DNA of 64,000 nt from Deltaproteobacteria bacterium (GTDB lineage Bacteria > Desulfobacterota > GWC2-55-46 > UBA9637). The position numbers and the translations under genes were made by a program. The notes under the pieces are model-generated. The model worked only from the letters and a program-made list of their open reading frames with translations, did not search any database and was not told the DNA's origin. The DNA lies in contig JAUYHF010000041.1 of the NCBI GenBank assembly GCA_030690165.1, forward strand, positions 1 to 64,000, written 5' to 3'. This document shows, piece after piece, positions 20,312-59,600 of this stretch; the stretch's first letter is position 1, and each line of letters starts with the position of its first letter.

Positions 20312-20372
20312 GTAGCTCAAACCTTCAGGTTTGAGGTTTCTCAAGACTTTCAAGGCTAAAGCCTTGAGCTAC
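20312..20372. repeat. Double-hairpin repeat (family I), complete copy with extended linker
   Basis: GTAG, CTCAAACC-TTCA-GGTTTGAG, a longer linker containing CTCAAGACTTT, CAAGGC-TAAA-GCCTTGAG, CTAC. The linker holds a partial duplication of the second hairpin arm. The element lies about 58 bp before the ATPase start. Confidence 0.88.
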
Positions 20373-20429: not shown

Positions 20430-23087
20430 ATGCAATGGCATAATAAGGAAATAAAAGAAGTCCTTGAAGATTTAAAGAGTTCTCCTCATGGGCTTTCTTC
20501 AGAAGATGCGCAAAAACAGCTTGAAGAATATGGTCCAAATGAACTTTTAGAGAAAAAAAAGAAGACCCCTTTAGCAATGTTCCTTGACCAGTTCAAGGAC
20601 TTCATGATTATTGTCCTTATTGCTGCCGCCATTATTGCCGGCGCACTGGGTGAAGCGGCTGACACCATCGCCATAGCAGTAATTATTGTGCTTAATGCCA
20701 TAATAGGCTTTGTTCAGGAATACAGGGCAGAGAAGGCAATGGCTGCTTTAAAGAAGATGGCAGCGCAATTTGCAACTGTAATAAGAGACGGCAAACTTAT
20801 AAATATCCCCGCATCAGAGATAGCGCCCGGAGATATTATTGTCCTTGAGGCAGGCAAGATTGTTCCTGCTGATATGAGACTCATTGAGGCAGTCCAGTTA
20901 AGGATAGAGGAGGCAGCGCTCACAGGAGAATCAGTCCCTGTAGAGAAATCTACAAAGGCTTTGCATGATAAAGAGCTGCCTATTGGCGACAGAAAAAACA
21001 TGGCATACAAAGGGACTGTTGTTAGTTATGGCAGAGGCAAAGGTATTGTGGTTTTAACAGGCATGGACACTGAAATTGGGAAAATTGCCACCATGCTTCA
21101 GGAAGAGGAAGAGGTAAAAACTCCACTGCAAAAAAGGCTCGCAAATTTTGGTAAAAGACTTGCCATTGCTGTTTTAGCCATATGTGCAGTTGTTTTTGGT
21201 ATCGGAATAATGAGAGGAGAGTCTCCAATCCTTATGCTCCTTACAGCCATTTCACTGGCTGTTGCAGCCATACCTGAGGCGCTTCCTGCGGTTGTAACTA
21301 TATCCCTTGCGCTTGGCGCAAGAAAGATGGTCAGGCGGAATGCACTCATAAGAAAACTCACGGCAGTGGAGACACTTGGCTCTGTTACATACATCTGCTC
21401 TGATAAGACAGGCACGTTGACTTTGAATAAAATGACAGCAGAGGAGATATGGGTTGATGGGCAACTTGTAGGGGCAGACCTCCGTGTCTGCCCGAAAGAA
21501 GAGGGCGAACACAGGGGTTCGCCCCTACATCTGCTCATGACTGCCCTTGCATTAAGCAATGATGCACAAACAGGCGCAGAGGGGAAGGCGCTGGGTGACC
21601 CTACAGAGATTGCCTTATATAACATTGCAAAGGATAAAGGCTTTGATAAAAAGGACCTTGAAACAAAATTTCCCCGCATTGCAGAGATTCCATTTGATTC
21701 TGACAGGAAGATGATGACTACCGTTCATAAAATCCCACACTCTTCCCCCCTTTTATTAGAAAAGGGAGGTGCGGGGGGATTTATCTCCTTTACCAAAGGA
21801 GCAATAGAGGTCTTGATAGAAAAATCTTCAAATATTTTGACATCAAAGGGAATAGAGACCATTGATATAGCGGAGATTAACAGAATAAGTGCAAGGATGG
21901 CAGCGGACGGTCTGCGAGTCCTTGCTATTGGGATGCGGAGATGGGAGGCTGTGCCTGAGATGATGACATCCGGGGAGGTAGAAAACAATCTCACTATTCT
22001 TGGATTTGTGGGCATTATGGATCCGCCAAGAGAAGAGGCAAAAGAGGCAGTTGCATTATGCAAGGCTGCGGGCATAAAACCTGTAATGATAACAGGTGAC
22101 CATCCGATTACTGCAATGGCAATAGCAAGAAGGCTCGGTATTATTGAAGAAGATTTAAAAACTATAATTACCGGAAGGGAACTTGAAAGGCTTTCTCTTG
22201 AAGAATTTGAGGAAAGGGTTCTTCATATAAGGGTCTATGCAAGGGTTGCGCCTGAACAGAAACTAAAGATAGTAAAGGCGCTTCAGGATAAAGGACAGTT
22301 CGTTGCAATGACAGGGGACGGCGTCAATGATGCGCCTGCATTAAAGAGGGCTGATATAGGGGTTGCAATGGGCATTACAGGAACAGATGTTTCAAAAGAG
22401 GCGTCGCACATGATTCTTCTGGATGATAATTTCGCAACCATTGTGAAGGCAGTGAAAGAGGGCAGACGGATATTTGACAACATACGCAAATTCATAAAAT
22501 ATACCATGACAAGTAATTCAGGCGAGATATGGACAATATTTCTTGCGCCTTTCCTTGGTTTGCCAATTCCCCTTTTGCCGATACATATCCTCTGGATTAA
22601 TCTTGTTACAGACGGACTTCCAGGACTTGCCCTTGCTGCCGAACCGGTAGAAAAGGGGATAATGAATAGACCTCCGCGGCATCCGAAGGAAAGCATATTT
22701 GCGCATGGTCTTGGTACGCATATTATCTGGGTGGGACTTCTAATGGGTTTTGTTTCAATCTTTACTCAGGCATGGTCAATTGAGACAGGGCATAGCCACT
22801 GGCAGACAATGGTTTTTACTGTCCTCTGCCTCAGTCAGATGGGTCATGTGCTTGCAATAAGGTCGGAAAGGGAATCTCTTTTCAGTCAGGGGTTATTTTC
22901 CAACAAACCCCTTTTAGGCGCCTTTGCATTAACCTTTGCCCTTCAGATGGCAACTATATATATTCCATTTTTAAATCCTATCTTTAAAACAGAGCCATTG
23001 AGTTTAGATGAGTTATTTATTACACTTGTCCTATCTTCTGTAGTATTCTTTGCAGTAGAAATAGAAAAATACTTTAAAAGGAGGTAA
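20430..23087 (+). CDS. P2A-type cation-transporting ATPase (Ca2+ pump-like) with in-frame repeat insertions
   Basis: The 885-residue inner-membrane pump starts at ATG 20430 behind AAGGAAGGAAGG. It has the actuator motif TGES (165-168), phosphorylation Asp325 in CSDKTGTLT, and the hinge [17 protein letters not shown]. Membrane helices resemble [18 protein letters not shown] in M4, MTSNSGE in M5 and [16 protein letters not shown] in M6, which favours Ca2+ transport, although PEALP replaces PEGLP. The N-domain holds two short insertions that coincide with palindromic DNA repeats: residues 347-367 ([20 protein letters not shown]) and about 434-451 ([14 protein letters not shown]). Both keep the frame and the pump motifs are intact. 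Confidence 0.92.
21468..21528. repeat. Three-stem palindromic repeat inside the ATPase reading frame
   Basis: The 61-bp unit reads GTAG, GGGCAGAC-CTCCGT-GTCTGCCC, linker, GGGCGAAC-ACAGGG-GTTCGCCC, CTAC. The arms GTAGGGGC and GCCCCTAC pair around the two hairpins. The layout equals family I, but the stems are different. It is translated as ATPase residues 347-367 in the nucleotide-binding domain. Confidence 0.9.
21730..21782. repeat. AAATCCC...GGGATTT repeat inside the ATPase reading frame
   Basis: The outer arms AAATCCC and GGGATTT enclose CCCTTTT-ATTAG-AAAAGGG. The ends and the C-rich/G-rich body match the intergenic element at 12314-12418. It is translated as about residues 434-451. Confidence 0.85.
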
Positions 23088-25829: not shown

Positions 25830-26495
25830 TTATATTGCCTTTTTCAGGCTGTCAACTATTGCTTTTATCCTGTCAGGTTTTGTCTTTAACGACGCCCTGT
25901 TGCAGATAAGTTTTGATGTAACCTTCATTATCTCCTCTACTTCCACAAGGCCGTTTCTTTTTAATGTCTCGCCGGTTTGAACCAGATCAACGATCCTCTC
26001 CGAAAGACCAAGGAGCGGGGCCAGTTCAATAGAACCGTAGAGTTTTATTATCTCAACCTGTATCCCTTTGTTCATGAAGTGCTTCAACGTAATGTTCGGA
26101 TACTTTGTGGCAACCCTTATGTGTGTCCAGTGCTTCGGATTATCTTTTTTGCCCAGTTCCCTGGGCTCTGCAACAACCATCCTGCAAATGCCGATGCCTA
26201 AATCAAGCGGTTCATAGATATCCCTCTCCTGTTCCAAAAGCACATCCTTCCCTGCTATACCCGCATCTGCGGCGCCATATTCCACATAGGTCGGCACATC
26301 CTGAGACCTTATTACCATGAACCTGATACGGCTCTTCTTATTTTCAAAGATAAGTTTTCTGCTGTCCTCCATGACATCGGAACAGTCAATACCGATCTTT
26401 TTAAAAAGGGCAACAGCCTCTTTCAGAATCCGACCTTTCGGAAGGGCAATGGTTAAGTAGTTTTGAGTTTTGAGTTTTAAGTTTTGAGTTCTCAT
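25830..26495 (-). CDS. hisG: ATP phosphoribosyltransferase, short form
   Basis: The 221-residue catalytic subunit does the first step of histidine synthesis. It lacks the C-terminal regulatory domain, so it should need a HisZ partner, which is not in the window. The core begins [16 protein letters not shown], and the PRPP loop region is [14 protein letters not shown]. The first 12 residues ([12 protein letters not shown]) are encoded by a CTCAAAACT-type DNA repeat (26459-26494) and have no counterpart in usual HisG. ATG is the only available start. It overlaps murA by 4 bp, so translation is probably coupled. Confidence 0.93.
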
Positions 26496-56647: not shown

Positions 56648-59600
56648 TTAATACGCTGTTGCCGGGCAGATATTATTAAAGGCGCAGTATTCGCAGTTTA
56701 AATAATCAGGTTTTGCAGTGTAATCCCTCTGTCTTATGCCTTTGGCCGCCCTGTCTATAATATCAAGGATCTTTTGAATGTGTTTTTCCTCAAAGACTGC
56801 TTTTCCCACCAGACCTGACTCAAGGAAATGCAGCTCGCAGCCTGACGGCAGTTTTTTGAAGTTCTCCCTGTATGCCAGTGCATAGAGCATGAGTTGGAGA
56901 CTATCCTTTGTTTTCTTGTCAGCGTTTTTCTGTTCCCTTACATCCGATGTCTTGAAGTCTATGATATAAGGGCCGTCTCCCCTCTCCTCTATCAAGTCCC
57001 ATCTCCCTTTTAGCCTGTTCATCCCAAGATCAACAACAAAATCCCTTTCTATTGCAGCAGGGTTTATGCCGTTCTGTTCCTGCTCATTGTAAAATTTTTT
57101 TATGGCCTCTTTGCCTGTCTCGTACCTCTGAAGTTCATGCTTCTTTGTCACAAAACCCTCGCTCCGCCAGTTTGCGTCAAAAACTGTAATAAGTTCATCA
57201 AGGCTTGCCCCCGAAGGGGTCAATCGGGGGCTGGCAGGCCTTCCATCTAATTTTTTCCTGAAATATGTGGATACCACCTCGTGCATTGCCTTGCCGTACA
57301 TGATGGAATGATGCGGCAACAAAGGGACTTTGAGTATATGAACGTATTTATACTTTAACGGGCATGTGCGATAGTCATCTATCTGGTAATGGCTCAGGGA
57401 AAGGACTGCGTCATCCGGCATGGCCGGAAATTCATTCGTCATCTCCTTAACAGGCGCATATCTCTTTATAGCCTCCATCGGTTTGGTCTTTACCGCCGCA
57501 ACTTCAGCCTTTGGCATATCCAGCGCCTCTAACACAAATGGGCTTATCTTTTTTACGCGCACGCCGCCGTAATCCGATGCGCTTGTGAGATAGAGTTCAT
57601 TCATAGCCCTTGTCATGCCCACATAAAAAAGCCGCCTCTCTTCCTGAAGGTGGAAATCTCCGGATGGGAGAATATCCTTTATAAGCGCATCAGGCAGTTC
57701 TATCTGCTCGCTTCGCTCCTTTCTGGGGAATCTATCTGCAACAAGGCTTACCATAAAAACCACAGGGAACTCCAGCCCCTTTGCCTTATGCACAGTAAGG
57801 ACCTGCACCCAGTCTGCCTCTATGTCAGGCTCGGCAGCGCCGGGATTATCTCCGGCCTCAAGGAGGAGGTCAAGGTAGTCCGCAAATACAGCCACCTTTT
57901 TTACCGAAAGGGTATTTTCTATATGCTGCGTAAGCTCAAAGAATTTTGCGATGTTCTGCACCTTTTCCACTGCATTGGCGGAATTTTCCTGCGATAGCCC
58001 TGTGATATATCCGGTATCCATAAGGAATGAATACAGGACTCTGCCTGCTGTCTCTTCCATCGCCATCTGACTATATTTTTCAATATCTTGAATAAGCTTT
58101 GTTATGGTTGCCAATCCTTCTTCACTTATGAGGGTCTGCTGTCCTGTTTTCTGGTTTACAGGGTTTTTCATTCCGAACTCACTTATCTCCTTCATCACAT
58201 AATACAGCGGCTTATGGCTTCCCCTGGATATGCTGTGGCACGGGATAAGGTCTTTTGCATTAAGCTGATAGATCTCCGAACATGCCAGATGATACAGGCT
58301 CATGCTGTCATTAAAATCTGTTATTGTATTAAGGAAGGCGATTAAAATCCTTATCTCCTCCCTTGAGTAAAGCCCCTGATTTCCGGAAAACCTGTGCGGT
58401 ATGCCCTTTGATTTAAGCGCCTTTAAAAACGGCTCTGCATCATTGTTTGCCCTAACAAGGATTGCAAAGTCTTTGTAAGAAAGTGGCCGGGGATCGGGGA
58501 CCGGGGACCGGGGGATCGGGGGCATCTTGCAACTGTCTTTTTGCATCTTGCATCTTGAAACTTTCTCTTCTATCATCTCAGCAACAGCCTCTGCCTCTTT
58601 TGTCAATGTATCAAAATGAAGGTGTTTAATTTGGCCACCGACCCCTGATCCCCGACCCCCGACCCCTGAAGTTAATCTCTTATCTATCCCGCTCTTTTTC
58701 TCAAGCCTATCCGGATTGTTGTGGGATATAAGCCTATAGGCTGAATCAAGCACAGACTGGACAGAGCGGTAATTCTTTGTAAGCGTGACAAGCTTTGCAT
58801 CAGGATACAACTCCTGAAAGGTAAGTATATTGCTTACGGCAGCGCCCCTGAACTTGTAGATTGACTGGTCATCATCTCCGACAACGGTGATATTCCCGTG
58901 TCCTTCTGATAGAAGCCTCACAAGCTGGAACTGGGCATAATTTGTATCCTGAAATTCATCTACAAGGATGTATCGGAACTTTTCCTGATACCGTTTTAAG
59001 ATATGCTGCCTTGTTCTGAAAAGTTTTAACGGCAGAACAACCTGGTCTCCAAAATCAAGATACCCGTGCCTTGCCATAAGCCCCTGATATTTTGCGTATG
59101 TCTTTGATAGCTCATCCTGCTGGATTGTTTCAATCTCCCCACCTAACCCCTCTGTTGCCTTTTTCAGTTTCTCTGCATAATCAGCATATTCTTCCGTCCC
59201 TACATCCTCATCCTTTAGCCTGCCTATAAGCTTTATGATGGCATAGATATATTTGGTGGGATTGCCAAGCGGCCGATAGTAATTAAGTGGAAGCTCAAAG
59301 AGCTGCTCCTTCAGAAAAATAATCCTCTCTGCATCATTTAATACCTTGAAGTCAGGGACAAGGCCGATCTCAATGGCATTATCCCTCAGTATCCTGTCGC
59401 CGAATGAATGAAATGTGGATATCCAGACATTGGAATACCCATAAGGCACAAGCCTGTCCACCCTTTCCTCCATCTCGCCTGCTGCCTTCTCCGTAAAGGT
59501 GAGGGCAAGTATCTGGCTGGGATTTACACCGCTTTTAATAAGATGTGCAATCCTGTGCGTAATGACCTTTGTCTTGCCTGTGCCGGCGCCTGCGATTATA

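Follow-up and report, generated by a model that had tools for sequence, protein, structure and literature searches.

The locus studied here raises the question of how a palindromic DNA repeat came to be read as protein within a cation pump that otherwise appears complete. We analyzed a window of 64,000 nucleotides from a deltaproteobacterial contig, for which a preliminary description had placed a complete 61-bp element of two hairpins, in frame, inside an intact P-type ATPase. Its coordinates proved exact (21468–21528), the ORF runs uninterrupted through the element, and the protein carries five Pfam domains.

The host gene (20430–23087, plus strand) encodes 885 amino acids when the Pfam-consistent ATG at 20430 is taken as the start codon. 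Its signature motif and full domain set (Cation_ATPase_N, E1-E2_ATPase, Cation_ATPase, Hydrolase and Cation_ATPase_C) mark the product as a P2-type, Ca2+-ATPase-like pump, the cation class being read from sequence, and the closest solved structure is the Listeria Ca2+-ATPase lmo0841 (6zhf, E 5.6e-194). The GTA at 21468 forms codon 347. No stop interrupts the pump frame within the element, which encodes the 20 residues V347 to L366 and ends with the C that opens the codon of His367. It lies in a linker of the N-domain (residues 342–371), referred to below as site A. A further palindromic pair, GTAGCTCAAACC...GGCTAAAGCCTTGAGCTAC, is found in the intergenic DNA upstream of the ATPase (window 20312–20372).

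The element consists of two 26-nt GTAG-tagged hairpins in head-to-head orientation, separated by a spacer of 9 nt, i.e., a multiple of three. On the plus strand it reads GTAGGGGCAGACCTCCGTGTCTGCCC, GAAAGAAGA, GGGCGAACACAGGGGTTCGCCCCTAC. The left hairpin (21468–21493, plus strand, GTAGGGGCAGACCTCCGTGTCTGCCC) matches the REP pattern exactly and encodes VGADLRVCP. It is followed by the spacer (21494–21502, GAAAGAAGA) and by the inverted right hairpin (21503–21528, minus strand, GTAGGGGCGAACCCCTGTGTTCGCCC on that strand), whose plus strand codes for GEHRGSPL. Each 26-nt unit is built of GTAG, an 8-bp stem, a 6-nt loop and the returning stem. The 8-bp stem is perfect within each arm (GGGCAGAC/GTCTGCCC and GGGCGAAC/GTTCGCCC), the arms are 78% complementary to each other (21467–21493 versus 21503–21529), and the region folds as a single strand with −49 kcal/mol. 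Most copies share a flanking T...A, which extends the length class from 61 to 63 nt. An Rfam scan of the window gave no match. As in the GTAG REP superfamily, the unit is a palindrome of 20–40 bp with an unpaired terminal GTAG, and the element, like many copies in relatives, is a dimer of the head-to-head type that prevails there. The stretch 21468–21528 is hence a classic REP "HH dimer".

Two variable linkers and five carriers of the dimer

We compared 93 homologues, the window gene among them, which had been selected for their resemblance to the window protein, many of the records being MAGs. The ATPase gene is strongly length-variable at only two places, i.e., site A, where the REP dimer resides, and site B, about 90 residues further on (21739–21786, plus strand, about residues 436–452). 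The weaker repeat at site B, CCCCCCTTTT...AAAAGGGAGG, belongs to the sequence class of the in-frame C5T3/A3G5 repeats found there in homologues. In the AlphaFold model, of moderate quality with a mean pLDDT of 68, both sites are predicted loops, and pLDDT falls below 50 at residues 354–358 and 445–448. Residues 349–364 are modelled with low confidence as a loop joining a strand to a helix in the better-modelled N-domain, in agreement with the earlier proposal that the repeat stays open and yields a loop.

Alignment did not bear out the expectation of a clean insertion absent from relatives. Their site A linkers span 10–48 residues, compared with 30 in the window protein, and often contain other repeats. 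The flanking protein does read as continuous ATPase, as had been described, but the segment is no addition to a protein of fixed length. Homologues without detected repeats have nearly equally long site A linkers (median 31 residues versus 33 with repeats), so the net length gain is small. An empty site was not found in closely related genomes; every within-genus homologue found has some filler.

The fillers are diverse. Site A is occupied by a GTCAGGA-type inverted 7-nt array in G002 and by a GGGGTCA-type array in L117, and hairpins of the CCCCCTTT/AAAGGGGG and CCCTCTCCC/GGGAGAGGG types are found at site B of homologues. Arrays with a 7-nt period were present at site A in 12 of the 93 genes and at site B in 11, versus none in 2511 other windows of the same genes. 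Counting 7-nt arrays, REP hairpins and C5T3/A3G5 repeats together, we found 30 in 197 kb of ATPase genes, five in 328 kb of neighbouring coding DNA and eight in 126 kb of remaining DNA; the resulting density in the ATPase genes, about tenfold that of neighbouring coding DNA, is valid for this panel only because the panel was chosen by similarity to the window protein.

Repeats of the 7-nt type were also seen in other genes. Two inverted 7-nt-period arrays (window 58483–58516 and 58638–58670) lie in the reading frame of an ORF of 1016 aa on the minus strand, which by eye resembles a UvrD-type helicase. Another 7-nt-period array (window 26456–26494) codes for the N-terminal 13 residues of a HisG-like protein and may represent an extension or a mis-set start. 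In the same genome, KSGVRGQGSEKQTQDLSLITQ near the start of an ORF that is LarE-like by eye (L029:7-888) resembles a translated 7-nt array.

The REP dimer itself occupies the same site A codon in five of the 93 homologues, scattered over the ATPase tree: the window gene, one gene from the same genus (G001) and three annotated as Nitrospirota (L044, L045, L079). The distance from the end of the dimer to the same two codons (ACN-GCN) is exactly 10 nt in every carrier, and in four of them the dimer starts six bases past the DG codons. The fewest changes that explain the dimer on the tree are five, the number of carriers. When the other carriers are compared with the window, only 29–39% of four-fold sites are identical, yet 50–57 of about 62 element positions are; the dimers of the carriers are 81–97% identical. 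Synonymous sites are saturated and yet the dimers are this similar, and we therefore prefer repeated arrival; the insertions are probably independent in the five carriers, and shared descent of the dimer among them is unlikely. Since the tree was built rapidly (SH-aLRT, LG+G4) and has open forks, the case for independence rests mainly on the synonymous sites. The same residues in unrelated phyla had been named as the observation that would speak for a conserved N-domain segment. Formally, the Nitrospirota-annotated carriers provide it. Their place in the tree, the saturation of synonymous sites and the near identity of the element DNA nevertheless argue for repeated insertion instead.

REP copies, RAYT-like genes and the tag in unrelated proteins

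REP hairpins are dispersed over the genome in multiple copies, at low copy number. Allowing up to two mismatches, we found nine, versus none for the reversed control pattern; with up to three mismatches the numbers were 13 and two. Genomes across the class hold 0–9 copies at up to two mismatches, and about 35 are found in G349. For these counts the DNA pattern outperformed a peptide search (class; 297 genomes of the phylum), which lacks sensitivity with a tag of this length.

One REP (C7:221057-221082) stops a few bases short of the ATG of a RAYT-like gene (L029:4590-5177; 195 aa). The gene has an own-frame GTAG palindrome and the family REP on one side only. Against Pfam Y1_Tnp the protein scored a borderline 21.9 bits (cut-off 23); its alignment with another RAYT-like protein covered almost the entire length (E 5.5e-51). 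The family search, which detected other Y1_Tnp genes in the same genome, missed it, and it was recognised by reading the locus. A second, related GTAG REP type, GTAGTTGCGGACATTTATGTCCGCCG, lies on both sides of a Y1_Tnp gene at C7:118144 (G000:C7:117919-118573; L020, L021, L030), a typical REPtron layout.

RAYT-like genes were also seen to carry in-frame GTAG palindromes in the loop just past the HUH motif (MPNHFHG...). A TAGGG...CCCTAC pair was present in 16 of 25 loops examined (L005, L148, L170, L178, L180, L201, L202, L205, L206, L210-L212, L219, L222, L223, L228), and several more were degenerate. We know of no report of such palindromes at this position.

A search for the tag in unrelated proteins, as the preliminary description had suggested, was successful. 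In relatives, in-frame dimers are found in RAYTs (L148, L170, L178, L180), in Eco57I-type methylases (L153, L176), in the HATPase_c domain of a histidine kinase (L184) and in a tRNA-guanine transglycosylase (Tgt, L191); Tgt, like NagZ (L190), was identified by eye from its sequence. In the same genome as the pump, a single REP, i.e., half of the dimer, codes for IDEHIGSPLQ within a RACo-like protein. The first base of an in-gene dimer is also the first base of a codon, and the spacers of head-to-head pairs are nearly all divisible by three, the exception being the Tgt gene with a spacer of 1, whereas intergenic dimers have spacers of all length classes. Such a bias would be expected from a frame filter. 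We considered but did not retain a strict single-frame rule for REPs inside genes, since other open frames are used by the RAYT's own single palindrome as well as by the second arm in both Tgt and NagZ.

Origin of the translated loop

We propose, with a probability of roughly 80%, that a REP dimer, of a type whose mobility is attributed to RAYTs, inserted into the flexible N-domain linker and survives there as a tolerated, translated loop. The dimer would be non-autonomous and moved as single-stranded DNA; by analogy with known systems, we infer that the RAYT-like protein encoded at L029:4590-5177 moves the REPs. Once inserted in the flexible linker with which the N-domain begins, it would leave the reading frame intact by virtue of its length class and absence of stops, so that the pump carries a translated loop of 20 residues, presumably neutral for its function. 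Insertions elsewhere in the gene would presumably be harmful and lost. REPs would survive in loops because there the frame is kept and the fold is undisturbed. The two linkers, as the only clearly tolerant places, would then have been colonised repeatedly, by REPs as well as by unrelated repeat families.

A stronger version, which we regard as possible but doubtful, is that the linkers are true insertion hot spots: unrelated repeat families would reach the same nucleotides by target preference in addition to tolerance, and the loop would be a fast-turnover structure built of repeats. The RAYT loop after the HUH motif displays the same pattern as the pump linkers, and the identical end point of the dimer in five carriers favours some target preference; the same picture would result if later deletions had pared a linker down to the element.

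It is rather unlikely that no transposition took place and that short repeats are exchanged within the linker through recombination or template switching among dispersed copies, for which the hairpin already present would be the substrate. The linkers of homologues are indeed similar in length and filled with unrelated repeats at the same position, and the 10-nt distance to the ACN-GCN codons is constant in all five carriers. In L044, moreover, a GGGATTA-like array at site A directly precedes the dimer. Genomic REP copies, however, have intact GTAG ends and are accompanied by a RAYT-like gene, and the dimer also resides in unrelated genes with no known earlier repeat.

It appears improbable that the hairpin is kept for a role in the mRNA, e.g., a translational pause at a domain boundary, or that the loop tunes the pump. 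The very stable fold and the recurrence at one site would suit such a role, as would the clustering of strong hairpins at site A (z < −3 in 13% versus 0–6% in other background windows). Most homologues, however, have no strong hairpin there (z above −2 in 79%), the site is taken by repeats that differ greatly in sequence and in encoded peptide, and the same tag is found in many unrelated proteins.

Transfer of a Rickettsia-type palindromic element (RPE) into this lineage is very improbable. The likeness that had been pointed out holds for behaviour, i.e., an in-frame palindromic repeat translated within an apparently functional protein of known function. It does not extend to membership, because the tags differ: REP-like RPEs of R. 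conorii (RPE-4 and RPE-6, the only families compared) are assigned to the CGTC superfamily (PMC3733652), whereas the present element has a GTAG tag, a different stem and another host lineage. A RAYT-like gene is present, and a plasmid search with the peptide tag gave no match. Finally, an ordinary conserved N-domain stretch that is palindromic by chance can be dismissed almost entirely, for despite nearly the same residues in the three Nitrospirota homologues, the residues differ completely in the closest homologues (L116, L117, L118), further copies of the DNA are found in the same genome and the linker of the Listeria pump is unrelated.

In this pump, the conversion of mobile palindromes into protein can be followed as a natural experiment with replicates. 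A single loop has received the REP dimer on five apparently independent occasions and other repeats on about a dozen, so that target choice becomes separable from tolerance. The results also call for caution with database entries: peptide tags like VGADLRVCP...GEHxGSPL are translated DNA repeats.

Relation to known REP systems

The pairing of inverted GTAG REPs is as in REPIN/RAYT/TnpA-REP systems (PMC3116915, PMC2817692, PMC8266576), and a RAYT-like gene adjoins a REP in the same genome, on one side only, where the RAYT gene of such systems is flanked by the REPs. In other bacteria TnpA-REP recognises GTAG and cleaves at a nearby CT or CA (PMC8266576). Unlike in those systems, where copies usually number more than 100, about nine are present here, for which reason we do not class them as a typical REPIN population, and REP pairs or palindromes are also found within the RAYT genes.

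Translated REPs as such are known, since GTAG REPs in ORFs of known proteins, contributing 20–30 aa, were described in other phyla in 2013 (Di Nocera, De Gregorio and Rocco; PMC3733652). The same authors suggested flexible linkers or loops as possible locations of in-gene GTAG REPs, and two Xanthomonas recB genes have a REP at about the same site. The claim that no report exists for this lineage stands as far as our incomplete coverage of the literature goes, in which we found neither such a report nor one of a single loop colonised by several repeat families; the text of PMC3733652 gave no word match for Nitrospira or Geobacter. The phenomenon is hence not new, and our analysis extends it to uncultured Nitrospirota and deltaproteobacterial lineages. 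Like the intragenic REPs of PMC3733652, the element has a GTAG tag, forms head-to-head dimers and resides inside ORFs of known proteins. In contrast to them, its copy number is low, one ATPase codon is occupied in five divergent genomes, and the linker takes other repeat families as well.
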